DNA from: Pseudomonas purpurea | GTDB taxonomy: Bacteria > Pseudomonadota > Gammaproteobacteria > Pseudomonadales > Pseudomonadaceae | NCBI RefSeq assembly: GCF_039908635.1 | Contig: NZ_CP150918.1 | Location: 3,922,001-3,986,000 of the forward strand | Length of the DNA: 64,000 nucleotides | Direction: 5' to 3' | Shown here: piece by piece, positions 1,172-48,289 of the stretch | Position numbering within the stretch: the stretch's first letter is position 1 | How the letters are laid out: every line of letters begins with the position of its first letter | The notes under the pieces: model-generated | What the model was told of the DNA's origin: nothing | The model's database searches: none | Seen by the model: only the letters and a program-made list of their open reading frames with translations | Program-made: the position numbers and the translations under genes

Positions 1172-2063
1172 TCACCACTGCAAAGTGATTTCACTCTCGA
1201 ATTCGCGTTCCTGCCCGGTGACCGGGTCAACAAAACGCAGACCCTGAGCCAGTAGTTTCAGGGGATTGGCGTAATCATCCTCGGCATCCTTCACAACCTC
1301 GGGATAAAACGGGTCATTGCAGATACTCGCTCCCAATGCCGTCATGTGCACCCGCAACTGATGCTTCTTCCCGGTCACGGGGTACAACCCGTAGCGCCAC
1401 AAGTCGCCGCTCTTCTCCCTGACCTCGACAGCCGTCTCGGTATTGCTGACACCAGGACCTTCCTGCATGCGAAAAAACGGTTCGCCATCGATCAATCGGC
1501 TTTTGTGCACCAGAGGAAAGGACAACTGCGGCAAGGCGCGGGCGATGGCTTCATAGCGCTTTTCGATTTGTCGGGTCGGGAACAGTGACTGATAGGCCCG
1601 AACGGCTTTGCGGGTTGGCGGAGAACAACACAAGCCCTGCCGTGTGCCGGTCAATACGGTGCAAAGGCACCAGATGCGGGTTGTCCAGGCGCCGGATCAG
1701 GCGACGCAGTAACGTCTGCTCCACGTACTCACCGGCAGGTGTGACGGGCAGAAAATGGGGTTTGTCCGCCACCACCAGATGCTCATCGGCGTACAGGATC
1801 GTCTCGAGCACGGGAATGGCTTTTTCGTCGGGCACTTCACGAAAGTAGTGAATGCGCAGCCCTTCCTTGTAAGGCAGATCAACCGCTATGGCATGGCCTT
1901 GACCATCAAGAACGCGTCCCCTGGCGATACGGTCCAGCCATTGCGCACGGCTGATGGCACTGAAGTGTGCGCACAGGCAATCGAGCACGGTCGACCACGC
2001 CCCGGGCGGTAGGTAAAGCGTACTGGCCTGGTTCTGTGCGGCAGAAAAAGGGGAAGAAGACAT
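1172..2063 (-). pseudogene. RluA-family RNA pseudouridine synthase, frameshifted
   Basis: The two halves are in different frames but together make one complete RluA-type synthase of about 296 aa. The N-terminal half (ATG at 2063, upstream alternative at 2096) carries the catalytic HRIDR motif, with Asp near residue 138. The C-terminal half continues with YQSLFPTRQIEKRYEAIA and the GKKHQLRVHM motif. The frame breaks at the C run 1597-1599 (coding strand TCGGGCCTATC). Removing one base there gives the continuous SANPQSRSAYQSLFPTRQ. No other defect is visible. The enzyme would isomerise uridine in rRNA or tRNA; the exact target cannot be told. I think the shift is more likely a sequence error than true decay, because six other genes here break at the same motif. 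Confidence 0.85.
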
Positions 2064-2140
2064 TCGAAAACTCTGACGAAAAAAGCAGGCCCGCATTATC
2101 CCGCATGGGGCGAAGTGAACCTAGGAGAGATTCTCCCGAG

Positions 2141-2461
2141 TCATGCCGTCACCAATGCCCGTTGCGAGGCCGCCTCGGTAAATTCCTTCAGCCAGCGCAG
2201 CACATCGACAGCCTCCCAGCGGCCCGGATCATAAAGCGCGTAGAGCAAGCCCTGATAACCCACCACGTCCAGTTGCCGGTGATAGCCTGCGCGCTGGAAC
2301 AACGCTTCGATTTCGGCAAAGCAGGTATTGAAATGCACTTTGTTGAAGGGCGTTTTCCCCTCCGTGACCAGACCATCGAGACGTAATTCGAGGACCGCCT
2401 CACGCACCACCTCGATAGACATCCGGTTCACACTATTTTTCAGTTGTTCGACATTGACCAT
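2141..2461 (-). CDS. Conserved hypothetical protein
   Basis: A 106-aa soluble acidic protein starting MVNVEQLKNSVNRMSIEVVR. It is probably all helical: a leucine-rich N-terminal helix (VVREAVLELRLDGL) is followed by a loop (TEGKTPFNKVHFNTC) and a helix ending in QGLLYALYDPGRWEAVDV. I recall similar conserved Pseudomonas proteins but no assigned function. The composition matches its neighbours. I chose the ATG at 2461 because upstream in-frame codons read through a low-complexity stretch with no ribosome-binding site. It may share a transcript with the glutaredoxin-like gene upstream (250 bp gap). Confidence 0.75.
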   Translation of the reverse strand: MVNVEQLKNSVNRMSIEVVREAVLELRLDGLVTEGKTPFNKVHFNTCFAEIEALFQRAGYHRQLDVVGYQGLLYALYDPGRWEAVDVLRWLKEFTEAASQRALVTA

Positions 2462-2711
2462 GCTGCATCCCTCTCGTTTTATCGTCCGTTTGATGCCTTT
2501 CAGCTGTACCCGCCTTGTCCGACGTCCAGATCGCCTCGACTCACGCCCATTGTCGGCATGAGTAAAGCAGATGGACATCCAGCCCTGAAAAGCAGCCCTC
2601 CGTTCAGGGCCAGGCAAACGCACGCAATCGCTGTATATGCGTACAGTAAACGAATAATCGAAATCACGCCAACGCAGAACGAGGGAAACACGACGGGCGG
2701 GACGGCAGCCC

Positions 2712-2949
2712 TCAGCGCAAGAACGCCACGACCTGCTCGGTATCGAACGGCCAGCCCAGCTCCGCCCCGGTATCGACACGGCGCAAGACCGGAATGCGCA
2801 GGCCATAGGCCTCAAACATAGCTTCACTGTCCGCAATGTCGACCAGTTCCACCAACAAACCATGCTCGACCAGCGGCATGACTTCCGCTTCGGCAAGTTC
2901 ACAGAGGTGGCAACCAAGGGTGCCGAACAATTGGCATTCAGGAGGCATG
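2712..2949 (-). CDS. Glutaredoxin-family (DUF836) thiol protein
   Basis: A small thioredoxin-fold protein of 78 aa. The redox motif is C13-H-L-C16 in TLGCHLCELAEAE, and the cis-Pro segment RIPVLRR lies about 40 residues later, as in the glutaredoxin-like DUF836 family. The C-terminus is WPFDTEQVVAFLR. The ATG at 2949 is preferred; a TTG at 2957 would add three residues. It probably acts as a cytoplasmic thiol-disulfide reductase, but no substrate is known. Confidence 0.82.
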
Positions 2950-3160
2950 ACAATCAAACCAGTAAAGAGAGGGTGATTATTCTAGGCCCGTCATGAAAAG
3001 CCGTCGAGCCAAAGGCCCTGAGGCCCTGGGCAAAGGACGATTCCAACCCGATACGCAAAACCCTGACGTACATCATTCTGCACCCGAGCCATTTGAGCGA
3101 TGCTCGCGGCTTTTTTTGCCTCTACGCTTGCGTGTCTCAAACCCCGAAATGGAGTGTTCC

Positions 3161-5121
3161 GTGTTTGCCAATCTGTTGATCATCCTTGCCTCATCCCTGG
3201 TGGTGATTGCGCTGTTTCGGCGCCTCAAGTTACCCCCTGTGCTGGGCTACCTGTGTGTCGGCCTGCTGGTGGGGCCGACCGCGTTCGATTGGGTGAACGA
3301 CAGCGAAGGCTTGCCGGACCTCGCCGAACTGGGCGTGGTGTTCCTGCTGTTTTCACTGGGCCTGGAATTCTCCCTGTCGAAGATGCTCGCGTTACGCCGT
3401 GTCGTGTTCGGTCTCGGCAGCCTGCAAGTGCTGTGCTCCAGTGTGTTGCTGGGCGGCCTGCTGATGGCGTTTGGCATGCCGATCACAGCAGCGTTGCTGC
3501 TCGGGGCGGGGTTGGCGTTGTCGTCCACGGCGATTGTCAGCAAGGAGTTGACCAGCCTTGGCGAGATTTTCAGCAGCCACGGTCAGAACGCGATTGGCGT
3601 GTTGCTGTTCCAGGACGTCATTGCCGTGTTGCTGCTGACCCTGGTGCCGGTGTTCGCCGGTAACAGCGACCAGGGCCCTGGTACTGGGCATTGCCGATTA
3701 CCCTGGCCAAAACCCTGGTGCTGTTCGCCGGTTTGCTGCTGGCCAGTCGCTGGTTGTTGCCGCGACTGTTCCATGAAGTCGCCGCCTCCCACTCCGCCGA
3801 GTTGTTTGTCCTGCTGGCGCTGGTGATTGTCCTGCTGACCGCGTGGCTGACCCACCTGCTCGGGCTCTCCCCTGCCCTCGGCGCGTTCCTGGCGGGCATG
3901 TTGTTGGGAGAAAGCCATTACCGGCATCAGATCGAAGCCGATATCCGCCCGTTTCGCGACATTCTGCTCGGGCTGTTCTTCGTCAGCATCGGCATGTTGA
4001 TCGACCTGCAATTGTTTGCCAGCCACGGCCTGCTGATCCTCGGCCTGACGCTGACACTGCTGCTGATCAAGGGCTGCGTGGTGGCGGCGCTGGTCAAATG
4101 GCGGGGCAGCGATGGCGAAACCGCCTGGCGCAGCGGCCTCGCACTGGCCCAGGGCGGGGAATTCTGCTTCGCGCTGATGGCCCAGATGCAGCAGAGCCAG
4201 TTGATGCCCACCGAATTGAGCGGCCTGCTGCTGGCCGCAACGTTCTGCTCGATGCTGGTGACGCCGTTGTTGCTGCGCGCTGCGCCACGCATTGCCGCCC
4301 ACCTGCATCGCAAACCCAACGAAGAGGCGAAACTCGACGAAATCACTGCACAAAATGCCGAGTTGCAGGGGCATGTGGTGATCTGTGGCTATGGCCGGGT
4401 GGGTCAGTCCATCGGGCGTTTTCTGCGCCGCGAAGCACAAGGTTTCATTGCGCTGGACGACGACCCGGTGCGGGTCCAGGAGGCGGCCGCGGGCGAAAGC
4501 TGCGTGCACTATGGTGATTCCCGGCGCGGTGAACTGCTCGCGGCCGTGGGCCTTGAGCGCGCGCGGCTGCTGGTCATCGCCGTGGACAAGACCGACATCG
4601 CCATGATCGTGCTCAAGGAGGCGCGGCGGATCAATCCCCACGTGCCGATTCTGGTGCGCACCCGCGACGACAGCCAATTGGCCGAACTCAAAGCGGCCGG
4701 GGCCAATGAAGTGGTGCCCGAGTTGCTGGAGTCGAGCCTGATGCTCGCCTCCCATGCGCTGATCATGCTTGGCCTGCCTGAACCGCAGGTTCAGGAGCGC
4801 GTCAACGAAGTCCGGCACAATCGCTATCGCCTGCTGCATGGTTTTTATCACGGAGCTCAAGCCAATTTGCTGGACAACCGGGGGCAGCCAAAAGTGCTGA
4901 TGCACGCCGTCAACCTGGCGGCAGACGCCCATGCTTGTGGCCTGCACCTCAGTGAGCTGGGACTGGAACAACTGGGTGGCGACGTCCAGTCGATTCAACG
5001 CAACGGCACCGACCTGCCGATGGACAAGCCCGGCCTGTTGCAAGTCGGCGACAAGGTACTGATGTCCGGCACCCTGTCCGCCATCGAGGCCTGCGAGGCA
5101 CGGCTGCTGGCCGGGCAATAA
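3161..5121 (+). pseudogene. KefB/KefC-like cation:proton antiporter (CPA2), frameshifted
   Basis: A glutathione-gated-type K+/H+ antiporter of about 650 aa, split into two frames. The N-terminal half has the first six or so membrane segments of the Na_H_Exchanger fold (FRRLKLPPVLGYLCVGLLVG, then LALSSTAIVSKEL). The second half has the remaining segments, then a TrkA-N (RCK) Rossmann domain with GYGRVGQSIGRFL and a TrkA-C domain. The frame breaks at GGGCCC 3673-3678, where the net change is +2 or -1. The likely start is the GTG at 3161, six bases after GGAG; the ATG at 3149 is an alternative. The family exports K+ during electrophile stress. The rest of the gene is intact, so I suspect a sequence error. 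Confidence 0.87.
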
Positions 5122-5179
5122 CCCCATCGCGACCGCCGGCCCCATGGCGATATCTCTTGGGGGCTGCGGTCGCCGATCA

Positions 5180-6388
5180 TCAATCCTGACTGACCGCTCC
5201 GATCTTGTGAATGGACAAGTCGGCACCGTAATACTCCTCTTCCTGGCTCAGCCGCAGGCCATGGAGGTGCTTGATCGCGCCATACACCCCGAATCCGCCA
5301 GCCAGGGCCACGACGACACCCAGCGCCGTGCCAATCAACTGGCTGATCAGGCTGACGCCACCGAGCCCGCCCAATGCACTCTGGCCGAAAATCCCGCAGG
5401 CAATTCCGCCCCACACACCGCAAATGCCGTGCAACGGCCAGACACCCAGCACGTCGTCGATCTTCCATTGGCTCTGGGCGGCAATAAAACACCACACGAA
5501 CAAGGCACCGGCAATCGCCCCCGTCACCAGCGCGCCGACCGGATGCATCAGATCGGAACCCGCGCAGATCGCCACCAACCCGGCCAGCGGCCCGTTATGC
5601 AGAAAACCCGGATCGTTGCGACCGACAATCAACGCCGCCACCGTGCCACCCACCATCGCCATCAACGAGTTGACCGCCACCAATCCGCTGACGCCTTGCA
5701 GCGTTTGCGCGCTCATCACGTTGAAGCCGAACCAGCCGACGATCAGGATCCATGAACCCAGCGCCAGAAACGGAATGCTCGAAGGCGCGAACGCCACCAG
5801 CCGCCCCTCGCGATAACGACCATTGCGCGGGCCGAGCAACAGCACCGCCGCCAACGCCAGCCAACCGCCCATGGCATGCACCACCACAGAACCCGCAAAA
5901 TCATGGAACCCGGCGCCAAAACGCGCTTGCAGCCAGGCTTGCAAGCCGAAGTTGCCGTTCCAGATCATGCCTTCGAAAAACGGGTAGATGAACGCCACGA
6001 TCAACACCGTTGCGCACAACTGAGGCACAAAGCGGGCGCGCTCGGCGATGCCACCGGAAATGATGGCCGGAATGGCCGCGGCAAAGGTCAGCAGGAAGAA
6101 GAACTTGACCAGCCCATAACCATGGTCCGCGCTGATGACCGCCGCCGGTTGCAGAAAGCTCACCCCATAGGAAATCCAATAGCCTATAAAGAAATAGGCC
6201 AGGGTCGAAACAGCGAAGTCGCTGAGGATTTTCGACAAGGCGTTGACCTGATTTTTTTGTCGGACGGTTCCCACCTCCAGAAAGGCAAAACCGGCATGCA
6301 TGGCCAACACCATGACGGCACCGATGAGGATGAACAGGGTGTTGGAACCATGAACCAGTGTGTCCACAGCACTTTGCAAATTTTCCAT
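5180..6388 (-). CDS. Ammonium transporter (Amt family)
   Basis: A polytopic inner-membrane ammonium channel of about 402 aa. The Amt signature is clear: MHAGFAFLEVGTVRQKN in the first third, NFGLQAW and FHDFAGSVVVHAMGGWLAL in the middle (the Asp and His of the conduction site), and HGICGVWGGIACGIFG late. The usual N-terminal start is MENLQSAVDTLVHG (ATG at 6388), although no good ribosome-binding site precedes it; an in-frame GTG at 6421 and TTG at 6424 are alternatives. No glnK lies beside it, so this is probably a secondary Amt rather than the amtB of the glnK operon. It converges with the antiporter gene. Confidence 0.92.
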   Translation of the reverse strand: MENLQSAVDTLVHGSNTLFILIGAVMVLAMHAGFAFLEVGTVRQKNQVNALSKILSDFAVSTLAYFFIGYWISYGVSFLQPAAVISADHGYGLVKFFFLLTFAAAIPAIISGGIAERARFVPQLCATVLIVAFIYPFFEGMIWNGNFGLQAWLQARFGAGFHDFAGSVVVHAMGGWLALAAVLLLGPRNGRYREGRLVAFAPSSIPFLALGSWILIVGWFGFNVMSAQTLQGVSGLVAVNSLMAMVGGTVAALIVGRNDPGFLHNGPLAGLVAICAGSDLMHPVGALVTGAIAGALFVWCFIAAQSQWKIDDVLGVWPLHGICGVWGGIACGIFGQSALGGLGGVSLISQLIGTALGVVVALAGGFGVYGAIKHLHGLRLSQEEEYYGADLSIHKIGAVSQD

Positions 6389-6711
6389 GGAGAGGGCAGC
6401 CCTTATGGCAATAAAAAGCACCAAAGCAGTTCGCAGGCCTTATGGGCGCACCAGCTTGGCGCCCGCCGCATCAACGGCATGCCTGTCGATGAACCGCTTT
6501 GGCGCAGAACCCGTTGCGAGGCAAATAACCGCACGCAGAATTCCGCAGGTTTGAGGGTTTTGGGTTAAGGTTTCGCGCTACACGCCCGACTTCAGCGCAA
6601 CCACATTCACTGGCGCACCACGGCGTAGCAAAAGCTGTACCAGTCATTTCCACTGAACCTTCGCGCAAGGCTCATACTCGAACGTTTCACCCAGCCAATA
6701 CGGAGATCACC
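6389..6711. other. Divergent intergenic region amt / YqjD-like operon
   Basis: These 323 bp separate two divergent genes. Apart from the sigma-22-like promoter near the right end I see no conserved structure, repeat or small gene. Confidence 0.5.
6655..6682 (+). promoter_or_regulatory. Putative AlgU (sigma-22, RpoE-like) promoter
   Basis: GAACCT at 6655-6660, a 17-bp spacer and TCGAA at 6678-6682 fit the envelope-stress sigma-22 pattern (GAACTT, 16-17 bp, TCnAA). It lies about 30 bp before the YqjD-like start codon. That fits the operon's membrane-stress content, but short matches of this kind occur by chance. Confidence 0.4.
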
Positions 6712-7026
6712 ATGGCCAGCAAAACGGCAAAGACTGCTCAAGAAATCCTGATGGAAGATTTTCAGACACTGGTCAGTGACACCGAACGGCTGTTGGAACA
6801 CACCGCCACACTGGCGGGTGATCAGGCCGATGAACTGCGCAGCCAGATCCACGAAAGCCTGGTGCGTGCCCGCGAAACCCTGCAACTGACCGAAGACTCC
6901 TTGCGTGAACGCGGCAAGGCGGCCGTCACCGCCACCGAAGACTATGTACAGGCCAATCCTTGGCAGTCTGTCGGGATCGCGGCCGGTGTCGGCTTCCTGA
7001 TCGGCCTGCTGGCGACGCGGCGCTGA
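6712..7026 (+). CDS. YqjD/ElaB-family (DUF883) membrane-anchored protein
   Basis: A 104-aa protein with a long amphipathic coiled-coil region (residues about 10-80, rich in Glu, Arg and Leu) and a C-terminal glycine-rich membrane anchor, SVGIAAGVGFLIGLLATRR. This is the DUF883 plan. In E. coli the related YqjD and ElaB are tail-anchored, bind ribosomes and are induced in stationary phase. The start follows GGAGATCACC. It is first in a tight three-gene operon (1-bp gap, then a 4-bp overlap), equivalent to yqjD-yqjE-yqjK. Confidence 0.88.
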   Translation: MASKTAKTAQEILMEDFQTLVSDTERLLEHTATLAGDQADELRSQIHESLVRARETLQLTEDSLRERGKAAVTATEDYVQANPWQSVGIAAGVGFLIGLLATRR

Positions 7027-7027
7027 T

Positions 7028-7411
7028 ATGGCAATCGGTGAATCCGGAACCGGCGGCTCAAGCGAATCGGCGCGGCGCCTGGGTGCTGCGTTCCTGGGCT
7101 TGCTGCACAGCCATGTGGAATTGTTCGGCATCGAGCTGCAAGAACAAAAGGCCCGCACCGTAAGCCTGCTGCTGTTTGCAGGCCTGGCGCTGGTGTTTGC
7201 CCTGCTGTTGCTGGTGGGTTTGTCGGCACTGGTGTTGATTCTGCTGTGGGACACCTATCGACTGACGGGCATTATCGGCTTGTGCGTCTTCTATGCCCTG
7301 GCCGCGTTGTTCTGCGCCCTGCGCTTGAAAGCGGCGATCTTCGATGAGTCATCGCCCTTCCATGGCACCCTGGAAGAGCTGGCCAACGATCGGGAGCGCC
7401 TGCTGCCATGA
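7028..7411 (+). CDS. YqjE-like (DUF1469, phage-holin superfamily) membrane protein
   Basis: 127 aa with two adjacent hydrophobic segments, VSLLLFAGLALVFALLLLVG and the following ALVLILLWDTY/GLCVFYALAALFCAL, typical of YqjE/Actinobacterial holin-X-like proteins. The N-terminus is Ser/Gly rich and cytosolic, followed by a short amphipathic HSHVELFGIELQEQK region. It overlaps the next gene by 4 bp. The molecular function is unknown; co-occurrence with YqjD suggests a role at the inner membrane under stress. It should not be taken as a prophage holin, since no phage genes are near. Confidence 0.82.
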   Translation: MAIGESGTGGSSESARRLGAAFLGLLHSHVELFGIELQEQKARTVSLLLFAGLALVFALLLLVGLSALVLILLWDTYRLTGIIGLCVFYALAALFCALRLKAAIFDESSPFHGTLEELANDRERLLP

Positions 7412-7752
7412 ACCTGCCCGAGATCCCCCAAAACAGCTCCCGACGGGACATGCGCAAGGCTCTGATTCGCTTGCGCATGGAGATGCACCGTCAGGAAATC
7501 CGTCATGAATCCCGGCAATTGCTGCAACCGCTGGAACGCCTGCGCGGCCTTGGCCAAAGTTGGCAGGAAGGTTTCGGCATCAAGCACGCTCCGCTCTGGG
7601 GTGTCGCCGCAGTGACCTTGCTGGGTTTTCTCACCGGCAAGGGCACCAAGGGTGGCGGCATCAGCGGTCTTGCTCGCCTGATTCGCCTGGGCACCAGCCT
7701 GTTGCCGCTGATCAAACTGGCGATGCAAGGTGCGTCACGCAAAAAAGACTAG
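7408..7752 (+). CDS. Hypothetical YqjK-like protein, third gene of the yqjDE-type operon
   Basis: A 114-aa basic protein. The N-terminal half is a charged helix (RRDMRKALIRLRMEMHRQEI), and the second half has two short hydrophobic stretches around GVAAVTLLGFLTGKG and LIRLGTSLLPLIKLAM. It overlaps YqjE by ATGA, so the two are almost certainly translated together. The position matches yqjK in enterobacteria, but sequence similarity is not obvious by eye. Function unknown. Confidence 0.75.
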   Translation: MNLPEIPQNSSRRDMRKALIRLRMEMHRQEIRHESRQLLQPLERLRGLGQSWQEGFGIKHAPLWGVAAVTLLGFLTGKGTKGGGISGLARLIRLGTSLLPLIKLAMQGASRKKD

Positions 7753-7974
7753 CCGACGTCGGTCTGGCTACAGGCTTGCGAAACCCCAAGGTACGAACCT
7801 CTTTGATCGAGGGGTTCGCTCCTGTCCGCCACCCTCAACCCGTATTGCCTGACGGTCGGGCAGTTGAACCTGCTGCCGATCGATATTGATGCGCCAGGGT
7901 CGTGGTGAAGCTTGCAGCCGGTGGCGCGAACCGGGAAGCTAGGGCATCAGTCACCTGACGGAGAGGAACCAGCC

Positions 7975-9303: not shown

Positions 9304-9313
9304 CAAAAACAGA

Positions 9314-9345
9314 CCCGCCACAGCAATGTGTTCTGCTGTGGCGGG
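9314..9345 (+). terminator. Hairpin terminator after dgt
   Basis: A perfect 12-bp stem (CCCGCCACAGCA with TGCTGTGGCGGG) has an 8-nt loop, 10 bp after the dgt stop. It is followed by CCGAAAAAACC rather than a long T run, so it may instead stabilise the 3' end. Confidence 0.65.
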
Positions 9346-9541
9346 CCGAAAAAACCTCTAGGCTTGGGGCTGTTTAACGCTTGGAGAATCCCCCTACATC
9401 CCTCACAGAGCAGACTGATCGCCAGCACTGCAATCACACGAAATAATCCAGGGCTGGACACCCGCGCTCGTTAACAGCATGTGGGTACAACGTCGTTAAA
9501 CCAACACCTGCTTTTACTTTCCGTGGAGGCGAGCGTTTTGC

Positions 9542-30403: not shown

Positions 30404-31754
30404 ATGATGAGCCAACCCTGGAGCCCTGACAGCTGGCGCGCCCTGCCGATCCAGCAACAACCCCACTACCCTGACGCGGCGCATCTGCACGCCGTCGAGC
30501 AAAGCCTGGCCAGTTATCCGCCACTGGTGTTTGCCGGCGAAGCCCGGGAGTTGCGTCGTCAGTTTTCCGAGGTGACTCAGGGCCGGGCGTTTTTGCTTCA
30601 GGGCGGCGATTGCGCAGAAAGCTTCGCCGAGTTCTCGGCAGCGAAAATCCGCGACACCTTCAAGGTGCTGCTGCAAATGGCAATCGTGATGACCTTCGCC
30701 GCCGCCTGCCCGGTGGTCAAAGTCGGGCGCATGGCCGGGCAATTCGCCAAGCCGCGCTCGTCCAATGACGAAACCATCAACGGTGTGACGCTGCCGGCCC
30801 TACCGTGGCGACATCGTCAACGGCATCGGCTTCGACGAAAAGAGCCGCGTACCGGACCCGGAACGCCTGCTCCAGTCCTATCACCAGTCCACCGCCACCC
30901 TGAACCTGTTACGCGCCTTTGCCCAGGGCGGTTTTGCCGACCTGCACCAAGTGCACAAGTGGAACCTGGACTTCATCGCCAACTCGGCCCTGGCCGAGAA
31001 ATACAGCCACCTGGCCAACCGTATCGATGAAACCCTGGCGTTCATGCGTGCCTGCGGCATGGACAGTTCGCCGCAATTGCGCGAAACCACCTTCTTTACC
31101 GCCCACGAAGCACTGTTGCTCAATTACGAAGAAGCCTTCGTGCGCCGCGACAGCCTGACCAACGATTACTACGATTGCTCGGCCCACATGCTGTGGATCG
31201 GCGACCGCACCCGTCAGTTGGACGGGGCTCACGTCGAATTCCTGCGCGGGGTGAACAACCCGATCGGGGTCAAGGTCGGCCCGACCATGAACCCCGACGA
31301 CCTGATCCGCCTGATCGATGTGCTCAACCCGGACAACGACCCGGGCCGCCTGAACCTGATCGCGCGCATGGGCGCCAACAAGGTCGGCGACCATTTGCCG
31401 CAACTGATCCGCGCCGTGGAGCGCGAGGGCAAGAAGGTGCTCTGGAGTTCCGACCCGATGCACGGCAACACCATCAAGGCCAGCAGCGGTTACAAGACCC
31501 GCGACTTTGCACAGATCCTCGGCGAGGTGAAGCAGTTCTTCCAGGTCCACGAAGCCGAAGGCACGTATGCCGGCGGTATCCACATCGAGATGACCGGGCA
31601 GAACGTCACCGAATGCATCGGCGGTGCACGGCCGATTACCGAAGACGGTTTGTCGGATCGTTATCACACCCATTGCGACCCACGGATGAATGCCGATCAG
31701 TCCCTGGAATTGGCGTTTTTGATCGCTGAAACCCTGAAGCAAGTCCGCCGTTAA
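30404..31754 (+). pseudogene. Class II DAHP synthase (AroG/PhzC type), frameshifted
   Basis: A 3-deoxy-D-arabino-heptulosonate-7-phosphate synthase of the plant-like class II, about 449 aa once repaired. It would condense PEP and erythrose-4-phosphate, the first step to aromatic amino acids. The N-terminal frame gives [20 protein letters not shown] and [15 protein letters not shown]; the second frame gives [12 protein letters not shown], then [15 protein letters not shown] and [18 protein letters not shown]. The break is at GGCCC 30796-30800: deleting one C joins LPA to YRGDI. The ATG is at 30404 or 30407. All catalytic motifs survive, so this may be a sequencing artefact. A class I DAHP synthase lies at 44905. 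Confidence 0.88.
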
Positions 31755-33471: not shown

Positions 33472-34327
33472 TTGAGCAGCTACCCGAGTATCGATACCGA
33501 AGTGCTGCGTACCTTCGTCGCTATCGCAGACCAGGGCGGGTTCACCCGCGCAGGCGAACTGGTGAACCGCACACAGTCGGCGGTGAGCATGCAGATGAAG
33601 CGGCTGGAAGAAGACGTGCTGCAACGCCAGCTGTTTCAGCGAGACGGTCGCCAGGTTCGGTTGACCGCCGAGGGCCAGGTGCTGCTCGGTTACGCCCGGC
33701 GAATCCTGAAACTGCACAGCGAGGTGTTCAACACCCTGCGCGAGCCACACATGGTCGGCATCGTGCGCATCGGCACGCCGGATGATTACGTGATGCGCTT
33801 CCTGCCGGGCATCCTCTCGCGCTTCGCCCAGGCTTATCCGCTGATCCAGATCGAGGTGCATTGCGAGCCATCAAAACAACTGCTGCTGCGCCGTGACCTG
33901 GACCTGTCCATCGTCACCCGGGAACCCGGCAGCGAGGTCGGCCAGTTGTTGCGCAAGGAACGTTTTGTCTGGGGCCCAGGCCCAGTGCTTCAACCCGGTT
34001 GAACAATCGCCGGTGCCTCTGGCGATGTTCAACGGCGATTGTTTCTGCCGGATCTGGGCCTGCAACGCCTTGGACACCTTGGGCCGCGATTACCGCATTG
34101 CCTACAACAGTTCGAGCCTGTCGGCACTGATGGCCGTGGTCAGCGCCGGGCTGGCCGTCACCGCACAGCTGGAAAGCCTGATCCCGGCGGACATGCGTAT
34201 TCTGGGCGAGGCCGAGGGCCTGCCACTGCTGCCCGAAGCCAGCATCATGCTGGTGCGTAACCTGAACAACCCTTCGCCGATCACCGAATGCCTGGCCGAG
34301 CACATCGTCGACGGCTTCAAACTTTAA
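33472..34327 (+). pseudogene. LysR-family transcriptional regulator, frameshifted
   Basis: About 285 aa once joined. Residues 1-65 form the LysR helix-turn-helix (LRTFVAIADQGGFTRAGELV, then NRTQSAVSMQMKRLEEDV). The substrate-binding domain begins VGIVRIGTPDDYVMRFLPGI and continues in another frame with NPVEQSPVPLAMFNGDC and SLSALMAVVSAGLAVTAQLE. The break is at GGGGCCC 33971-33977; removing one base gives VWAQAQCFNPVEQ. The start is probably TTG 33472 (nine bases after GGAG); ATG 33436 or 33445 are alternatives. Its 3' end overlaps the TauE gene by 11 bp, tail to tail. Confidence 0.85.
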
Positions 34328-37133: not shown

Positions 37134-37554
37134 ATGCAAACTCTCTACACCGCTGTTGCAACCGCCACCGGTGGCCGTGATGGTCGCGCCGTTTCCAGCG
37201 ACAACATCCTCGATGTCAAACTCGCCACCCCCAAAGAACTGGGCGGTGCGGGCGGCGCAGCGACCAATCCCGAGCAATTGTTCGCAGCCGGTTATTCGGC
37301 CTGCTTCATCGGCGCACTGAAATTCGTCGCCAGCCAGACCAAGCGCAAAATTCCGGATGACGCCGCGATCACCGCCCATGTCGGCATCGGTCAGATTCCT
37401 GGCGGTTTCGGTCTGGACATCGACCTGCACGTCAGCCTGCCAGGGCCTGGAGCAGGTCGATGCACAAACCCTGGTCGACGCCGCGCACCAGGTCTGCCCG
37501 TACTCCAACGCCACACGCGGCAATGTGGACGTGCGCCTGCACGTCACCGTCTGA
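37134..37554 (+). pseudogene. ohr: Organic hydroperoxide resistance protein Ohr, frameshifted
   Basis: A thiol peroxidase of the Ohr/OsmC family, about 139 aa when joined. The peroxidatic Cys lies in AAGYSACFIGALKFVAS and the resolving Cys in AAHQVCPYSNATRGNVDV, the latter in a second frame. The break is at GGGCC 37443-37447: removing one G yields VSLPGLEQVDAQTLVDAA. Ohr reduces fatty-acid hydroperoxides and peroxynitrite with lipoylated proteins. It is controlled by OhrR from the palindrome at 37037. The repaired protein has normal length, so decay is not obvious. Confidence 0.9.
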
Positions 37555-39503: not shown

Positions 39504-39899
39504 ATGCCGTACCGCTCGACTCCCCGCCGCCCGTTGCGTATCAACGTCAATGCCATCCAGTTGACCGTCAGCATTGCCTTGGGTTTATGGTTGGGTTTCC
39601 TGGCCATCGCCCTGACCTGCTGGCTGGCTGCCCGCTTTGTGTTCGCCCCGCAACTGGCGCCCGTGGCCGAAGCCGTTCAGCAGTTGGCCAAGCCACCGGT
39701 CGTGGAGCCCGTCGCGCCCAACCCGATGTTCGAGCAGTACCAGGAAAACCTGCGCAAGAACGAACAGCAGCAAACCCTCGATCAGGCTCGTAGCAACCCA
39801 CGCAATCTGTCCAATGCCAAGTGCCAGTTCTGGCTGCAACAGGACCAGACCGCCCCCAGCGAAAAATCCCGCGCCAACGTCCTGCAATTTTGCGATTGA
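39504..39899 (+). CDS. Small membrane protein of unknown function
   Basis: A 131-aa protein with one membrane span (about residues 18-45, LTVSIALGLWLGFLAIALTC) and a C-terminal periplasmic or cytosolic helix with QYQENLRKNEQQQTLDQARS, ending in AKCQFWLQQDQTAP. I do not recognise a family. ATG 39504 follows CAGGATGCCGCC. It ends 2 bp before the next gene, so the two are likely an operon. Confidence 0.75.
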   Translation: MPYRSTPRRPLRINVNAIQLTVSIALGLWLGFLAIALTCWLAARFVFAPQLAPVAEAVQQLAKPPVVEPVAPNPMFEQYQENLRKNEQQQTLDQARSNPRNLSNAKCQFWLQQDQTAPSEKSRANVLQFCD

Positions 39900-39901
39900 T
39901 C

Positions 39902-41364
<1,463 letters not shown>

Positions 41365-41468
41365 TCAAAGCAGATAGACGCCACGGGCATCAGCGACGGT
41401 ATATAACTATATTAATGGTTTGAATAATAAATCTAGAACTTTTTTGTCAAAAGGCCAGTATTCATGCA

Positions 41469-41969
41469 TCAACTGTCTCCGTAACGCCGACGCTGCACCA
41501 ACGGCACCAGATAGACCGGCACCTGGGCCAATTGCAGCACCCGCGATGCGGTACGCCCCAACGGGGTTTCCCCACCCGCCCCATGGCTGTGACTCCCTAC
41601 GATCAACAAATCCACCGAGAGTTTCTGCGCCTGTTCAAGAATCACTTGCGACGGATCGCCCTGGAACACCCTCACCGACTGGATCAGCGCCAGGTCCTGC
41701 TGCCCCTCCCCCAACTCTTCACGAAAACTGTCGAGCACCCGCTGCTCGATATTGGCCATCACGGTGTTCAGCCCCTCGCTGTGAAACTCGCTCAAGGCTT
41801 GTTCGTCGAGGTAGCTTTGCAGCACCGACTCGGCAAACAACCCCATGGGTTCGACGGCGTGCACCACATACAAATCGGCTTTGAATGTTCGCGCCAATGC
41901 CAAGGCATGCTGCATCACATAAGGCGCGTACAGGCCGAGGTCAGTGGCGTACAACATCGAACGAATCAT
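41469..41969 (-). CDS. Universal stress protein (UspA family)
   Basis: A 166-aa single-domain Usp. The N-terminal strand MIRSMLYATDLG is typical. The ATP-binding motif lies in DLLIVGSHSHGAGGETPLGRTASRVL, of the G-x2-G-x9-G-(S/T) type, suggesting the ATP-binding subfamily. VHAVEPMG and VPVYLVPL fit the fold. ATG 41969. Downstream is cysB after 113 bp. Physiological trigger unknown. Confidence 0.92.
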   Translation of the reverse strand: MIRSMLYATDLGLYAPYVMQHALALARTFKADLYVVHAVEPMGLFAESVLQSYLDEQALSEFHSEGLNTVMANIEQRVLDSFREELGEGQQDLALIQSVRVFQGDPSQVILEQAQKLSVDLLIVGSHSHGAGGETPLGRTASRVLQLAQVPVYLVPLVQRRRYGDS

Positions 41970-42052
41970 GTGACCTCCTCGGGTGCCAAGATGGCGGAGA
42001 TTGATTCAGCTTAGCAGTGCCGCGACGAGTTCGGCGTCCCGTGCCACGGGGC

Positions 42053-42958
42053 TTAAACCTTCAGTTCATTGCTGATGCCATGAGGAACGTGACCGGTCGC
42101 GACCACCTCGCGAGCGAGCTCGCAGTGCCCGGTCTGATCGTCGAAAAACACGTCCGCCGCGAAGGCTTCGAGGAACGCCGACTTCTGCAGGCCGCCCAGG
42201 AACAGAGACTCGTCAAGACGAATATCCCACTCGCGCAATGTGCGAATGACCCGCTCATGCGCTGGCGCCGAACGGGCCGTCACCAAGGCCGTGCGGATGG
42301 GGCAGGCATCCTCGGGGAACTCGCGCTGCAACAAATTGAGCGCTTCCAGAAAGCCCCTGAACGGCCCGCCGCGCAACGGCTCGCGGGCCGACTCACGTTC
42401 GCTGGCCTGAAAAGCCTCAAGGCCTCCCGACTGATAAATGCGCTCCGATTCATCGGAGAACAGCACCGCGTCACCGTCGAACGCAATGCGCAATTCTTCA
42501 CTGGCCGCACGGCTCGCGCCCCCCGACAAAATGGTCGCGGCTGCAAACCCAGCGTCCAGTGCACTGCGCACATCGTCGGCGTGGGTGGAGAGAAACAGGT
42601 CGCAATCGAAGGCTTTCAAATACGGATACGGACTGCGCCCACCGACAAATGCCGCGCGGGAAATGGCCAGCCCGTAAGAGTGAATCGAGTTGAAAACCCG
42701 CAGGCCGGTGTCGGCGCTGTTGCGCGAAACCAGCACCACTTCGACCCTCGCTCGTCCGAGGCTGGCGTTCAAGTTCAAGAGTTTTTGCACCAAAGGAAAC
42801 GCGTCCCCCGGCGCAAGAACCTCGTCCTCGTGTTCGATCTGATACTGCCGATAGGCTTCGACACCGCTCGCCAGATACACCTTGTGGCTCTCGCTCAAGT
42901 CAAACAGAGCCCGCGAAGAAATCGCCAGCACCAGTTTGTCAGTCAACGCCTTTGCCAT
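42053..42958 (-). CDS. 5'-nucleotidase (PF06189 family)
   Basis: A 301-aa cytosolic 5'-nucleotidase-like protein of the family related to vertebrate cN-I. Visible HAD-like signatures include LVLAISSRALFDLSES and the C-terminal FFDDQTGHCELAREVV; SRNSADTGLRVFNSI also fits. The gene is complete; ATG 42958. It probably dephosphorylates (deoxy)nucleoside monophosphates; which one is unknown. It is 25 bp from the panE stop on the same strand, so it may be in the thioredoxin-panE operon. Confidence 0.85.
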   Translation of the reverse strand: MAKALTDKLVLAISSRALFDLSESHKVYLASGVEAYRQYQIEHEDEVLAPGDAFPLVQKLLNLNASLGRARVEVVLVSRNSADTGLRVFNSIHSYGLAISRAAFVGGRSPYPYLKAFDCDLFLSTHADDVRSALDAGFAAATILSGGASRAASEELRIAFDGDAVLFSDESERIYQSGGLEAFQASERESAREPLRGGPFRGFLEALNLLQREFPEDACPIRTALVTARSAPAHERVIRTLREWDIRLDESLFLGGLQKSAFLEAFAADVFFDDQTGHCELAREVVATGHVPHGISNELKV

Positions 42959-42982
42959 TTCATTCTCCCTCGACAGATCGAC

Positions 42983-43947
42983 TCAGGCGTTGCGCCGATC
43001 AATAAAGCGCAACGCCTGATACAACGCTTCAATTCTTGGTAACTCGCAACCGTGGGCCTTGGCCGCGGCCAAGGGGCGGGCGTAGATCGCCGCCAGTTCC
43101 AACGGTCGCTTGTGCACGAAATCGTGGTACATGCTCGGCCAGTAATCGGGCATGCGTTCAGTCACCTTGAACAGGTGCTCGGCGTACCCGACGGGCAACT
43201 CATAACCACAGGCCTGAGCGCCCTGTACCACTTCAGCCATCAGCGCCTGAATCAACGCGCGGCTGTCGGTATCGGCCATCAACGGCGTGGTGCTCGCACC
43301 GAGCAACACCGACAACCCGTTGTAGGGAACATTCCAGACCAGTTTTTGCCAACGCGCCTGTTGCAGGTTGGCCATGGCCTGGGACTCCAGACCAGCGGTG
43401 CGAAACAACTGCGCACCCTCCTCGACAATCGCCTGACGCGCCGCCTCGTCAAGCTGAGCCGGACCGCTGTGATAACCGATGTTCACCGCCCCCAGTGCTT
43501 GATGCTCGATCACGCCGGGACCGGCGCGATGCACGCAGATAAAACACAAGCCGCCCAGCAGATGCAGCGAGTCGGGGAGCAAGGTACGCAGGCTGTCTTC
43601 GACGTCCAGGCCGTTTTGCAGCACCAGCACTTTGGCGCCCGAGGCTGCGGCCTGAATGATGGCTGGGGCCAGTTCGGTGTTGCTGGTGGTTTTGGCGCCC
43701 ACCAGCAGCCAATCGCAGGGCGGCATGTCCTGGGCCGACGCATAGGCCCCTGCACCGGGTTCAGATTCAACGAGCCGTGCACGGCACTTTCGAGTTTCAG
43801 GCCGCGCTCGGCGACCGCAGAAAACTCGCTGCGCAACAGAAAGTGCACATCGAACCCGGCACGCGCCAACATCACACCGTAGAAACCACCAATGGCTCCG
43901 GTGCCGATCATGCCAATAGTGGGTCTGGAAACAGCGGCATCCTTCAT
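42983..43947 (-). pseudogene. panE: Ketopantoate reductase-family (PanE) protein, frameshifted
   Basis: 2-dehydropantoate 2-reductase-like enzyme, about 320 aa when joined. The NADP(H) loop is IGMIGTGAIGGFYGVMLAR near residue 13. The C-terminal domain (in the second frame) has LVWNVPYNGLSVLLG, with the family Asn and Ser, and KRPLELAAIYARPLAAAKAHG. The break is at GGCCCC 43745-43750 (coding GGGGCC), where the net change is +2 or -1. Removing two bases gives NLNPVQAYASAQDMPPCDW. It overlaps the thioredoxin gene by 4 bp. This may be a paralogue rather than the essential pantothenate gene. Confidence 0.85.
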
Positions 43948-44270
43948 GGCAATTCCTCTGCGGGTCGGGCAAGCGCCTGCGCGACGGCTTCATTGAGTCG
44001 GGATTGAGTCAGGCGTGTTTGCAAGGCACCATAAAACTCACCGTCGCGTACCACGAACAGCGCCGGCAAGTGGAACACTTCATAACGCGCAACCACGCCA
44101 CCGTTGTGCCCGACATCGATCCAGCACAAACGATCGACTGCCAGGGCCAGCCCCGGCAAGTGCCGGTGCGCCCAACGACAACTGGCGCAACCATCGCCGG
44201 TGAAAATCACCAGTGACACACCGCTCATCGCCAGCAGCCGTTGATCGGCGTCGAAATCGGTCAGTTGCAT
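43944..44270 (-). CDS. Thioredoxin-family protein
   Basis: A 108-aa thioredoxin-fold protein. The redox site is C28-A-S-C31 in GDGCASCRWAHRHLPG, and the cis-Pro is in YEVFHLPALFVVRDGEF. CASC differs from canonical CGPC, suggesting a different redox potential. ATG 44270 is chosen; an in-frame GTG at 44279 is possible. It overlaps panE by 4 bp. Partner unknown. Confidence 0.85.
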   Translation of the reverse strand: MQLTDFDADQRLLAMSGVSLVIFTGDGCASCRWAHRHLPGLALAVDRLCWIDVGHNGGVVARYEVFHLPALFVVRDGEFYGALQTRLTQSRLNEAVAQALARPAEELP

Positions 44271-44295
44271 TTCGGCCACTATACTGGGGGAAACA

Positions 44296-44772
44296 ATGTC
44301 GATTGACCGACACCCGGAGTCCGCATTCATGGGACGTTTTCTTCCTCATCCTGACGATGTGCCTGTCGAGTTAACGCTGCTCAAGCATCAATGCATTTCT
44401 CGACAGCGGCTGCACACTATCAGCCTCGGCGGCGTGGCATGCAATTACCACCGCGCCTGGCGAAAAGGCACGGCACTGGAAGTGCGCATACCGACCCTCA
44501 GCGAAACGGTGTGTTATCTAGGCTATGTGGCCTGGTGCCTGCGACGAAAGCACAGCTATCTGGTCGGCATCGCATTCATCGATGAGCAGACCCTGTTCAG
44601 CGCCCGGATGGGCGAGCAAGTCTGCCAGATCGAACGTTACTGCCGCCTGCACGAGCCCCAGGCTGAACAGCAGAATGCCCAGGTCCTGGCCCTTGAATGG
44701 GTGCAGCAACACGCCGACGAGTTCTCCCACGACACGCTTCGCAAGGCGTTTACGCAGCCGGCGCTGGATTAA
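44296..44772 (+). CDS. PilZ-domain protein (probable c-di-GMP receptor)
   Basis: A 158-aa single-domain PilZ-like protein. The RxxxR motif is represented by SRQRLHTISLGGVACNYHRA, with the following (D/N)xSxxG element as TISLGG. The remaining beta-barrel strands are VRIPTLSETVCYLGYVAWCL and YLVGIAFIDEQ. The first Arg segment appears intact, but the Asp/Asn of DxSxxG is replaced by Thr, so affinity is uncertain. Start at ATG 44296 (GGGGGAAACA upstream) or ATG 44329. It is divergent from the thioredoxin gene with only about 25 bp between starts. Confidence 0.8.
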   Translation: MSIDRHPESAFMGRFLPHPDDVPVELTLLKHQCISRQRLHTISLGGVACNYHRAWRKGTALEVRIPTLSETVCYLGYVAWCLRRKHSYLVGIAFIDEQTLFSARMGEQVCQIERYCRLHEPQAEQQNAQVLALEWVQQHADEFSHDTLRKAFTQPALD

Positions 44773-44904
44773 ACCCGCGCCTGCCCATTGTCGAGCAACC
44801 GGTTAACGCGCTAAGGTTCGGCTCCCCGCTGCGCTTAAATCATGCTGTGCTCCGCCGCGCGGGGATCGCTGGCGGCCGGCACCCGTGACCTGACGAGTAA
44901 CACG

Positions 44905-45981
44905 ATGGCTGATTTACCGATCAATGACCTAAACGTCGCCTCCAACGAAACCCTGATCACTCCCGATCAGCTCAAGCGTGATATTCCCCTGAGCGATGCC
45001 GCCCTGCGCACCGTGACCAAGGGTCGCGAAGTGATTCGCAATATTCTGGACGGCACCGACCACCGCCTGTTCGTCGTCATCGGGCCCTGCTCGATCCACG
45101 ACATCAAGGCTGCACACGAATATGCCGAGCGCCTCAAGGCCCTCGCCGCAGAAGTGTCCGACACCTTGTACCTGGTCATGCGGGTGTATTTCGAGAAGCC
45201 GCGTACCACCGTCGGCTGGAAAGGCCTGATCAACGACCCGTACCTGGACGACTCGTTCAAGATCCAGGACGGTCTGCACATCGGTCGTCAGTTGCTGCTG
45301 GACCTGGCTGAAATGGGCCTGCCGACCGCCACCGAAGCGCTCGATCCGATCTCCCCGCAATACCTGCAGGACCTGATCAGCTGGTCGGCCATTGGCGCCC
45401 GCACCACCGAATCCCAGACGCACCGTGAAATGGCTTCGGGCCTGTCCTCGGCCGTCGGCTTCAAGAACGGCACCGACGGTGGCCTGACCGTTGCCATCAA
45501 CGCCCTGCAATCGGTCTCCAGCCCTCACCGCTTCCTGGGCATCAACCAGGAAGGTGGCGTCTCGATCGTCACCACCAAGGGCAACGCCTACGGTCACGTG
45601 GTGCTGCGCGGCGGCAACGGCAAGCCGAACTACGATTCGGTCAGCGTCGCGCTGTGCGAACAAGCGCTGAACAAGGCCAAGATCAAGCCCAACATCATGG
45701 TCGATTGCAGCCACGCCAACTCCAACAAAGACCCGGCACTGCAACCGCTGGTGATGGAGAACGTGGCCAACCAGATCCTCGAAGGCAACCAGTCGATCAT
45801 CGGCCTGATGGTCGAGAGTCATCTGAACTGGGGCTGCCAGGCCATCCCCAAAGACCTCACCGAATTGCAATACGGCGTGTCGATCACCGACGCCTGCATT
45901 GACTGGTCGGCCACTGAAAACACCTTGCGCAGCATGCATGCCAAGCTCAAGGATGTGCTGCCTAAGCGTGATCGCACCTGA
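44905..45981 (+). CDS. Class I DAHP synthase
   Basis: 3-deoxy-7-phosphoheptulonate synthase of the AroFGH type, 358 aa, catalysing the first shikimate step. Conserved segments are VVIGPCSIHDIKAAHEYAERL, with the metal-binding Cys; MRVYFEKPRTTVGWKGLIND; GARTTESQTHREMASGLS; GKPNYDS; and the metal ligands in DCSHANSNKDP and DACIDW. The feedback-site residues cannot be assigned by eye. ATG 44905 is the usual start (MADLPINDLNVAS). A strong terminator follows. The class II copy at 30404 duplicates the activity. Confidence 0.94.
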   Translation: MADLPINDLNVASNETLITPDQLKRDIPLSDAALRTVTKGREVIRNILDGTDHRLFVVIGPCSIHDIKAAHEYAERLKALAAEVSDTLYLVMRVYFEKPRTTVGWKGLINDPYLDDSFKIQDGLHIGRQLLLDLAEMGLPTATEALDPISPQYLQDLISWSAIGARTTESQTHREMASGLSSAVGFKNGTDGGLTVAINALQSVSSPHRFLGINQEGGVSIVTTKGNAYGHVVLRGGNGKPNYDSVSVALCEQALNKAKIKPNIMVDCSHANSNKDPALQPLVMENVANQILEGNQSIIGLMVESHLNWGCQAIPKDLTELQYGVSITDACIDWSATENTLRSMHAKLKDVLPKRDRT

Positions 45982-46001
45982 TCGCATTCAGCGCACACAA
46001 A

Positions 46002-46029
46002 AACGCCGGGCTTAGCCCGGCGTTTTTTT
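46002..46029. terminator. Terminator after the class I DAHP synthase
   Basis: AACGCCGGGC and GCCCGGCGTT form a 10-bp stem with a 3-nt loop and a run of T. It also serves the convergent acetyltransferase gene. Confidence 0.92.
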
Positions 46030-46049
46030 ATTGTGTTCGGTGACCCTGA

Positions 46050-46334
46050 TCAGAGCTTGGCAGCGTGGCGCTGATGGCGCTCCATGTAACGCTCCACGTA
46101 GGAACACGAAGGGATGACGGTGTAACCCATCTGTTCCGCGTACTCGAGCGCCTGCTCGGTCAACGCAGCGGCGATGCCTCGGCCACGCAACGCGTTGGGC
46201 ACGAACGTGCGATAGATGTCCAGGGTTTGCTTACCCAGGTCCATATAGGTCAGGTAGGCACGATGACCGTCCACATTGGTCTCGAACTGATGACCAGCCT
46301 GGTCATGGTGGATGGACAACGCCTCGCTCATCAC
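46050..46334 (-). CDS. GNAT-type N-acetyltransferase (YjdJ/PF14542)
   Basis: A 94-aa short GNAT protein of the N-acetyltransferase-2 family. The acetyl-CoA loop is in FVPNALRGRGIAAALTEQAL, and the end reads VIPSCSYVERYMERH. Small acetyltransferases of this class (human GTLF3B-like) have no defined bacterial substrate. ATG 46334 or 46331. The gene ends 20 bp before the terminator of the DAHP synthase. Confidence 0.88.
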   Translation of the reverse strand: MMSEALSIHHDQAGHQFETNVDGHRAYLTYMDLGKQTLDIYRTFVPNALRGRGIAAALTEQALEYAEQMGYTVIPSCSYVERYMERHQRHAAKL

Positions 46335-46942
46335 TACTCCTCGCGGGTCTTGAATTGACCCCTACCTTACCGATGTTTTTCCGGCGAAGGAACCTCTACG
46401 CCACCCCGTGCCTGACTGGACACCGAGAAGAGCCGTACTGATCTCGCGTTACCCGAGCACGTATCAAATAGTAGGCGCCATTGGCGCAAATGCTCAAGAC
46501 GCGCTCGTCATGCCGATGCAGCCCGGGGTCACACAGAAGCGGCCCGACCGGACTTTCCCCTCGGTCGATTGCCTGAACATTGCCGGATGTTGAGACTTAA
46601 GACGAGCGCCCTTTGTTAAAGTCACCTCTACATCGACAAAGATACGTGAAGCGCTACGCAGAATCTGAACAAAAGTGTAGACGAATCAATATAGATCGAC
46701 TTCAGGCACTACCAGCAACTAGCCTCGGGTATCCGGCAGCCTGCTCAGGACGGGGTTCACAACTGAATATTTTTTATACAGCGCACTGAAAAGTTGCCCG
46801 AAAAAGATTCAACGCCTACAATTTTTTTTGCATCTTGCGCTACGTCAGTTTACTTACTACAAGTAATGGGTAGTATGTACGCCGGCTATTTCCTCACTCT
46901 GAAGAGATAGCTATTAATAGAAAGTCCTTGAAGGGGAACACG
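46335..46942. other. 608-bp non-coding region before oprI
   Basis: No convincing ORF. The left half has normal GC content; the last 200 bp before oprI are AT-rich and presumably contain the strong lipoprotein promoter and a long leader. ORFs of about 60 codons across 46408-46593 lack a ribosome-binding site and normal codon bias. No repeat or RNA family recognised. Confidence 0.55.
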
Positions 46943-47194
46943 ATGAACAACGTTCTGAAATTCTCTGCTCTGGCCTTGGCCGCAGTTCTGGCTACCGGTT
47001 GCAGCAGCGCCTCCAAAGAAACCGAAGCTCGTCTGACTGCAACTGAAGACGCAGCAGCTCGCTCCCAGGCTCGTGCAGACGAAGCGTATCGTAAAGCTGA
47101 TGAAGCTCTGGCTGCTGCTCAAAAAGCACAACAGACTGCTGACGAAGCTAACGAGCGTGCTCTGCGCATGCTGGAAAAAGCTAGCCGCAAGTAA
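46943..47194 (+). CDS. oprI: OprI, major outer-membrane lipoprotein
   Basis: An 83-aa Lpp/Braun-type lipoprotein, one of the most abundant Pseudomonas proteins. Signal peptide 1-19 ends in the lipobox LATGCSS with Cys20. The mature protein is a coiled coil with Ala/Glu/Asp heptads ([20 protein letters not shown]) and a C-terminal Lys (ASRK) that can be linked to peptidoglycan. The ATG at 46943 follows AAGGGGAACACG. The codon usage is strongly biased, as expected of a highly expressed gene. A strong terminator follows. Confidence 0.98.
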
Positions 47195-47215
47195 TAGTCC
47201 CTCGGGATTGTTATC

Positions 47216-47248
47216 AAGCCGACCCATTACTTGGGTCGGCTTTTTTTT
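47216..47248 (+). terminator. oprI terminator
   Basis: AAGCCGACCCA and TGGGTCGGCTT form an 11-bp stem with a 5-nt loop, followed by a run of T. Confidence 0.93.
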
Positions 47249-47270
47249 GCCCGGGGTTTCTGTCGGTCAT

Positions 47271-47306
47271 AAAAAAACCCGCCGAAGCAGTCATGCCTCG
47301 GCGGGT
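47271..47306 (-). terminator. Terminator for the L,D-transpeptidase gene
   Basis: On the minus strand ACCCGCCGA pairs with TCGGCGGGT around a 12-nt loop, followed by seven T. It lies just after the transpeptidase stop. Confidence 0.85.
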
Positions 47307-47322
47307 CGCTTTTGACGGCTTA

Positions 47323-48289
47323 CTACTGCAGCTCTATTGGCGCCGCCGAGACCACTGGCGCCGTACCCGGCACGGCGATTTCTACCGGCAGGCCATCTTC
47401 TGCGGCGACCACGTCGCGCACCACATCCCAGTTCATGCGCAAGTTGTTGGTGATGTCTTCGCGCTTGAGCATGGCGTTGATGACAGCGGTGTGTTTGTCG
47501 ACCACCGACGGGTTGCCCTTGTCGTCCAGCGGTGTATGCGCCTCGAGGTAAACCTTGCCACCGCTGACGCCGAATTTGTACGGGTCGTTGAGAATGCGCA
47601 CCGACGTGCCCACCGGCACCATGCCCGCCATTTCCAGCACGTTGTTATTGAACATACGGAAGCAGCCATGGCTGGTGCGCATGCCGATGCCGAACTTCTT
47701 GTTCGAACCGTGGATCAGGTAACCCGGCGTCCCCAGGGTGAACTTGAACGGCCCCAACGGATTGTCCGGGCCTGCCGGCACAACGTTCGGCAACGGGTCG
47801 CCATCGGCGGCGTGCTCGGCCTTGATCGAGGCCGGAGGCGTCCACGTCGGGTTCGGGGTCTTGGCGACGATGCTGGTGTGCGCGATGGGCGACCCCCACC
47901 CCTCACGACCGATACCCAGCGGGAAGGTGTACACCACATTCCGGCCCTTGGGGTAGTAATACAAACGATACTCGGCCAGGTTGATCACGATGCCTTCGCG
48001 CGGGCCCCGGCGGCAGAATGAAGCGGGTCGGCAACACCACTTCGGTGCCTGCGCCCGGCAGCCACGGATCGATACCGGGGTTGGCCGCGACCATTTCCAG
48101 ATAACCCAGATCGTAAGTGGTACCCAGGTCAGCGAAGGTGTCTTCGTACTTGGCTTTGATCACTTGCACCTGACCGACAATGTCTTCGCCCGGTGGCGGT
48201 AGAGGCAACTCCAGTGCGGCAACGGGACCTGCCACGCACAGGGCGGCAAGAGACAGGCAGCGGGTGACGGCAGGAAAACGCGGCAACAT
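47323..48289 (-). pseudogene. LysM-containing L,D-transpeptidase (ErfK/YbiS type), frameshifted
   Basis: A periplasmic transpeptidase that would cross-link peptidoglycan or attach lipoprotein such as OprI. ATG 48289 (GAAGGA upstream) starts a signal peptide (CLSLAALCVAGPVAA). A LysM-like segment (TFADLGTTYDLGYLEMVAAN) and the YkuD domain follow, with the active-site Cys in MRTSHGCFRMFN. The frame breaks at GGGCCCC 48002-48008: removing one base gives ILPPGPREGIVINLAEYRLY. The genes oprI and this enzyme are adjacent and convergent, which fits a functional link. ATG 48307 is a weaker start. Confidence 0.86.

Follow-up and report, generated by a model that had tools for sequence, protein, structure and literature searches.

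DNA phosphorothioation by Dnd systems has a GGCC core in Pseudomonas fluorescens Pf0-1, where only some of the sites are marked. According to the available text of PMC12193691, which gives GpsGCC as the modified motif of both Pf0-1 and Streptomyces lividans, the target of the modification is tied to three residues of a loop in the DndC protein: Thr-Arg-Ser is associated with GAAC/GTTC, Thr-Gln-Asn or Asn-Gln-Thr with GATC, and Arg-X-Lys/Arg with GGCC. Excerpts from PMC11931770 also list GpsGCC for Pf0-1, and excerpts from PMC9521924 describe phosphorothioation as hitting a reproducible subset of its target sites. Nanopore error is elevated at phosphorothioated bases and in their vicinity (reported in the accessible part of PMC9069010), and in two of ten Pseudomonas aeruginosa isolates, PA068 and PA188, nearly all nanopore errors were found at GGCC, in a small subset of the sites (reported in the accessible part of PMC12345217). 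Here we describe a stretch of 64,000 nucleotides of the Pseudomonas purpurea genome (contig NZ_CP150918.1, positions 3,922,001 to 3,986,000; "the window" below) in which seven genes are split between reading frames at GGCC, together with a dndBCDE operon that lies elsewhere in the same genome. We consider it highly probable that the breaks are consensus errors made at sulfur-modified GGCC sites, where the native DNA, modified through dndBCDE, was misread.

The genome resembles the Dnd GpsGCC systems of S. lividans 1326 and P. fluorescens Pf0-1 in having dndBCDE, an Arg-X-Lys/Arg loop, a GGCC core and a limited subset of sites involved; it differs from them in that the sulfur is here deduced from errors in the record. 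With PA068 and PA188 it shares errors at GGCC that are restricted to a small subset of sites and, as far as the available text of PMC12345217 goes, are not consistently accounted for by methylation; the main text of that paper contains none of the words phosphorothio-, dnd and sulfur. The raised error of native DNA at its modified positions, which PMC9069010 used for phosphorothioate detection, would have its counterpart here, but the accessible part of that report concerns a synthetic plasmid and Salmonella enterica, with GAAC/GTTC as the motif and no GGCC in its text, and it analysed reads, whereas the insertions described here stand in finished genomes. Among the papers listed by literature searches on phosphorothioate or GGCC together with nanopore errors, no title or abstract opening described such insertions in finished genomes.

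Seven genes of the window are broken at GGCC

Each suspected break was examined by local alignment to the syntenic stretches of three to five relatives, drawn from the genomes G002, G005, G016, G094 and G310 (mean DNA identity 81-85%). At all seven sites the window carries extra bases within a G-then-C run that contains GGCC, and the run is longer than that of every aligned relative. These alignments bear out the original prediction, made from the letters of the window alone, that seven genes are frame-split at GGCC, and the run lengths match its count of five one-base and two two-base shifts. One base has been added in the genes for a pseudouridine synthase (run at 1595..1599, minus strand; break at 1597), a class II DAHP synthase (30796..30800, plus strand; 30798), a LysR regulator (33971..33977, plus strand; 33973), an OsmC-like protein (ohr; 37443..37447, plus strand; 37444) and an L,D-transpeptidase (YkuD; 48002..48008, minus strand; 48005), and two bases have been added in the genes for a Na+/H+ exchanger (TrkA-N; 3673..3678, plus strand; 3675) and a ketopantoate reductase (panE/apbA; 43745..43750, minus strand; 43747). 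The identities of the seven genes are taken from a domain scan of their intact homologues in G005, and they hold as first proposed. Sixteen consecutive bases taken at random from this genome contain GGCC with a probability of 0.105, and seven of seven would occur by chance with a probability of about 1e-7. It had also been stated that most GGCC sites of the window are intact, which agrees with our count of 609, most of them unchanged. A repaired form (A/C)GGCCT had been claimed for five of the seven sites; the bases that flank the run give four (3675, 30798, 37444 and 43747), and the flanks of the other three are A and G (1597), T and A (33973), and C and G (48005).

Six of the seven breaks were recovered by each of two automated frameshift callers. 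Both missed the break at 48005, which is visible in the local alignment and in the output of our first caller; this caller had loose filters, its output was dominated by antisense frames, and other callers took its place. The additional calls in the window were weak, with one relative each (four from the second caller; two from the strict caller described below, neither of them at GGCC). When the relatives were themselves taken in turn as targets (second caller, five relatives, 400 kilobases (kb)), four calls had the support of at least two relatives; one half of each was at most 42 amino acids long, and their motifs were examined only in part.

Breaks at GGCC recur across the genome and cut an indispensable gene

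The genome is a single contig of 5,931,563 bases, from which we sampled 22 further stretches of 20 kb. Nineteen of these and the window make up four compared blocks (444 kb in all), and the stretch at 3.30-3.32 Mb and two stretches around dnd lie outside the frameshift count. The strict caller requires protein conservation on either side of the frame change, and its calls were counted as solid if both halves had at least 70 amino acids, or at least 16 amino acids with three relatives; calls that combined short halves with the support of few relatives were dropped before the solid count. GGCC was present at 19 of the 24 calls of any strength and at 19 of the 20 solid calls, which came from 359,039 nucleotides of conserved coding DNA (chance probability about 5e-18). 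The window itself had prompted the idea; outside it, all 13 solid calls were at GGCC (about 2e-13). Among the 256 four-base words GGCC ranks first at the solid calls with its 19 sites, and GGGC is second with 12. A frameshift count by motif across the genome had been proposed along with the original prediction, and over the sampled stretches it has given this focus on GGCC. The sole solid call away from GGCC (block C 68200, which is window 28200) is supported by one relative; it stands 5' of a conserved gene, in what we read as a non-coding leader. The weak calls that were dropped (A 93949, A 95329, B 78718 and C 93477) are none of them at GGCC.

Gyrase A is indispensable, and a cell without it could not live. 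In the source genome gyrA was recovered solely as two fragments, which lie at a single locus in different frames; the single other match is a protein below the cut-off, which we take to be parC. Since gyrA is cut in two and gyrase A is indispensable, the break must lie in the record and not in the cell. The seven breaks of the window are of the same kind and are thus almost certainly errors too; they are very probably consensus errors of the deposited genome rather than mutations. Enolase, DapC, ribulose-phosphate epimerase and RimO, identified through their unbroken counterparts in G005, are also cut at frameshift calls; among the named cut genes, copy number was checked for gyrA only. Real frameshift mutations, produced for example by end-joining after breakage at sulfur-labile GGCC or by gene decay, would fit the occurrence of all breaks at one motif, which is perhaps chemically fragile when sulfur-modified. 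Gene decay, however, should be confined to dispensable genes, and the broken genes include gyrA here and rpoB in a second genome (below). Moreover, protein conservation runs on past both sides of the breaks, and the completeness of the source genome is given as 100%. We regard real mutation as extremely improbable.

The genome carries a Dnd operon with a GGCC-type loop

The prediction that a Dnd system would be present was recorded ahead of the search for DndC. The profile search found DndC in the source genome with 676 bits (cut-off 290) and did not find it in any of the six relatives searched. Among 398 sampled genomes of the genus, the source genome counted, DndC is over the cut-off in ten and reaches E <= 0.001 in 23. 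The genes dndB, dndC, dndD and dndE are consecutive intact frames at genome positions 909537-914549; the open frames consecutive with dndC are over the cut-offs of NCBIfam TIGR03233 (dndB), TIGR03185 (dndD) and TIGR03184 (dndE), and the PADLOC names for dndB, dndC and dndE agree with those of NCBIfam. The DndC loop reads GYPAP-RNR-FRW, that is R-N-R, and is, judged by these residues, of the published GGCC type Arg-X-Lys/Arg. No dndF, dndG or dndH was named among the neighbouring open reading frames that were scanned. An Mrr-type endonuclease, a Methyltransf_35 protein and a HATPase protein stand in a row beside dnd (genome 905607-908750; L191:10607-13750), integrase genes lie on its opposite side, and the neighbourhood looks like a defence island.

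The original prediction had explained the breaks by a systematic base-calling or consensus error at modified GGCC, and had proposed a GGCC-specific methyltransferase in the host. The first part is strongly supported by the findings above. As to the second, the search for a HaeIII-like cytosine methyltransferase found no match to the C5 methylase profile PF00145 at E <= 0.001 in the source genome, and the best match at E <= 10 (E 0.335, 12.4 bits) covers profile positions 2-37 only; PF00145 is over its cut-off in 10 of 14 control genomes. The N6/N4 methylases are represented by one match, a C-terminal fragment (genome 3312544-3312786, plus strand; L123), and no DPPY motif was seen in the three plus frames of the 1 kb around it. 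Methylases with a defined target site normally modify almost every copy of it, whereas about 20 of the 3,749 GGCC sites within the sampled blocks carry a break. Cytosine methylation at GGCC as the cause of the same artefact does draw some support from the nanopore base-call errors due to methylation that are documented in excerpts from PMC12345217, and from the fact that the Methyltransf_35 protein, annotated as a putative O-methyltransferase, adjoins dnd. However, no Methyltransf_35 protein was present among the seven non-dnd open reading frames scanned near the dnd genes of the second affected genome, of which a genome-wide search was not made. Taking both sides together, we think methylation a very unlikely cause.

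A second genome is affected and the controls are not

The DndC nearest to that of the source genome, among the sampled genomes of the genus, belongs to G330 (668 bits, 90% identical), which has a full dndBCDE and the same loop, R-N-R. The RNA polymerase gene rpoB is a gene that no cell can lose. Its frame was compared across 16 genomes, of which nine have DndC above the cut-off; 15 of the 16 gave a length of 1363 amino acids, and G330 gave 983. An additional base at GGCC, at contig position about 800300, cuts the G330 frame, and this cut probably arises from the same error as the breaks of the source genome. The strict caller made two solid calls in 177,998 nucleotides of G330, both at GGCC. 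A weaker call in an extension (29709) is likewise at GGCC and was dropped from the solid count, as were weak calls at A 37961, 62203, 65446 and 70110 and at C 79743, none of which is at GGCC. Two clear breaks, window 48005 and the rpoB of G330, were missed by the strict caller. One more G330 call at GGCC (block C 27880) was made by a looser caller and is missing from the strict calls, probably as a result of the gene-start rule.

As controls we used two genomes with no DndC (G005 and G094) and two whose DndC loops read T-K-A (G306) and S-R-S (G120). The four together gave one solid call in 985,025 nucleotides and none at GGCC: there were no solid calls in G005 (321,154 nucleotides), G306 (167,882) or G120 (170,699), and the one in G094 (325,290) was not at GGCC. 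Another stretch from G005 and G094 (roughly 255 kb, partly overlapping) gave no call. We also counted all gaps of one or two bases, coding or not, but other indels dominate this count and the contrast is weaker: among insertions relative to at least two relatives, 12 of 44 were at GGCC in the source genome and 5 of 30 in G330, and in the other genomes the counts were 1/28 (G005), 1/32 (G094), 0/19 (G306), 2/31 (G120), 1/18 (G016), 0/6 (G002) and 0/7 (G310).

These comparisons bear on a further explanation, that a base-caller is simply weak at runs of G and C and that no modification is needed. Every broken site is indeed a short G-then-C run that the insertion has lengthened, and the available text of PMC12345217 gives no methylation that consistently explains the GGCC errors reported there. 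Against this, no solid frameshift at GGCC was called over 985 kb of the single-contig relatives, whose platforms are unknown, and the rare dnd operon with a GGCC-type loop is common to both affected genomes. In addition, the flanks of the hit sites are non-random: in the position 5' of the G run, taken on either strand of 20 broken sites, A is over-represented (20 of 40 flanks; 24% expected) and T is under-represented (4 of 40; 37% expected). Such flanks would be expected if the modification had sequence preferences beyond GGCC. A plain weakness at G/C runs seems to us quite improbable.

Sulfur modification as the probable source of the insertions

If the breaks are consensus errors at sulfur-modified GGCC, the steps could be as follows. 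DndCDE would put sulfur in place of a backbone oxygen at the G-G linkage of GGCC, in both strands, and the modification would cover a subset of the GGCC sites. Native DNA would have been read on a single-molecule platform, most likely nanopore, with single-molecule real-time (SMRT) sequencing as the alternative. The altered backbone would disturb the ionic signal, as the accessible part of PMC9069010 reports for synthetic and Salmonella phosphorothioates, and the base-caller or the consensus step would then add one or two G or C at some of the modified sites.

The insertions and their focus on GGCC, the cut in a gene that the cell needs, the unbroken operon with its GGCC-type loop, the second genome and the controls were all seen directly, and from the errors of the record we infer both that sulfur is present at the hit sites and that it causes the miscall. 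Several points weigh against this explanation. The errors in PA068 and PA188 were, by the available text of PMC12345217, mostly G-to-A substitutions, unlike the insertions found here, and substitutions of GGCC to GACC or GGTC are not in excess in the source genome (70/1300, compared with 71/1302 in G005 and 94/1372 in G094). NCBIfam names the protein in the dndD position DndD (660 bits), but in the PADLOC ranking PbeC, at 1071 bits, is the top name and DndD, at 435 bits, the third. The Methyltransf_35/Mrr module beside dnd could modify DNA. The sample of genomes with a GGCC-type loop consists of two, the source genome and G330, and despite the same loop events are fewer in G330, where about 270 kb of conserved coding DNA holds 4 of them, than in the source genome, where about 359 kb holds 20. 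The contrast with the controls spans single-contig relatives of unknown sequencing platform; their calls of any strength number 20, and two of the 19 weak ones (in G094 and G120) have GGCC near the gap. Finally, with the looser caller GGCC was near 5 of 35 control calls, compared with 4 of 7 in G330.

Other features of the genome

Among the best 80 of 384 loci related to one protein of the window, all are from Pseudomonas and many, as read from their names, are from the P. fluorescens group, to which the source bacterium probably belongs. The window also contains a match to the Pseudomonas small RNA P14 of Rfam (46763-46907, plus strand; 119.8 bits). About 61 kb before the window, the sixth 16S rRNA match of the genome is only 792 bases long (genome 3859966-3860757, minus strand; L189) and aligns at 99% to the upstream region and about the first half of a full copy; it is either a truncated copy or an assembly fault.

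Implications for genomes with sulfur-modified DNA

The DNA modification is itself known but has been little mapped, and the breaks described here are very probably its visible footprint. Dnd sulfur may also be the cause of the nanopore errors at GGCC in P. aeruginosa for which the accessible part of PMC12345217 has no explanation. We lean towards the broader view that phosphorothioation scars finished long-read genomes with motif-specific, frame-breaking insertions and that the GGCC errors met in P. aeruginosa outbreak sequencing come from Dnd-bearing strains. If our explanation is true, the 20 events in about 359 kb extrapolate to perhaps two to three hundred genes of the source genome that the record shows as broken by mistake, gyrase included, and the same holds for an RNA polymerase gene in the second genome. 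The insertions would then mark phosphorothioated sites, and there would be a checkable cause for the GGCC errors that methylation left unexplained in the 2025 clinical study. Public assemblies could be read backwards to sulfur-modified strains, their core motif and their sites without the raw reads, and this would permit a cheap survey of DNA sulfur modification across public genomes.

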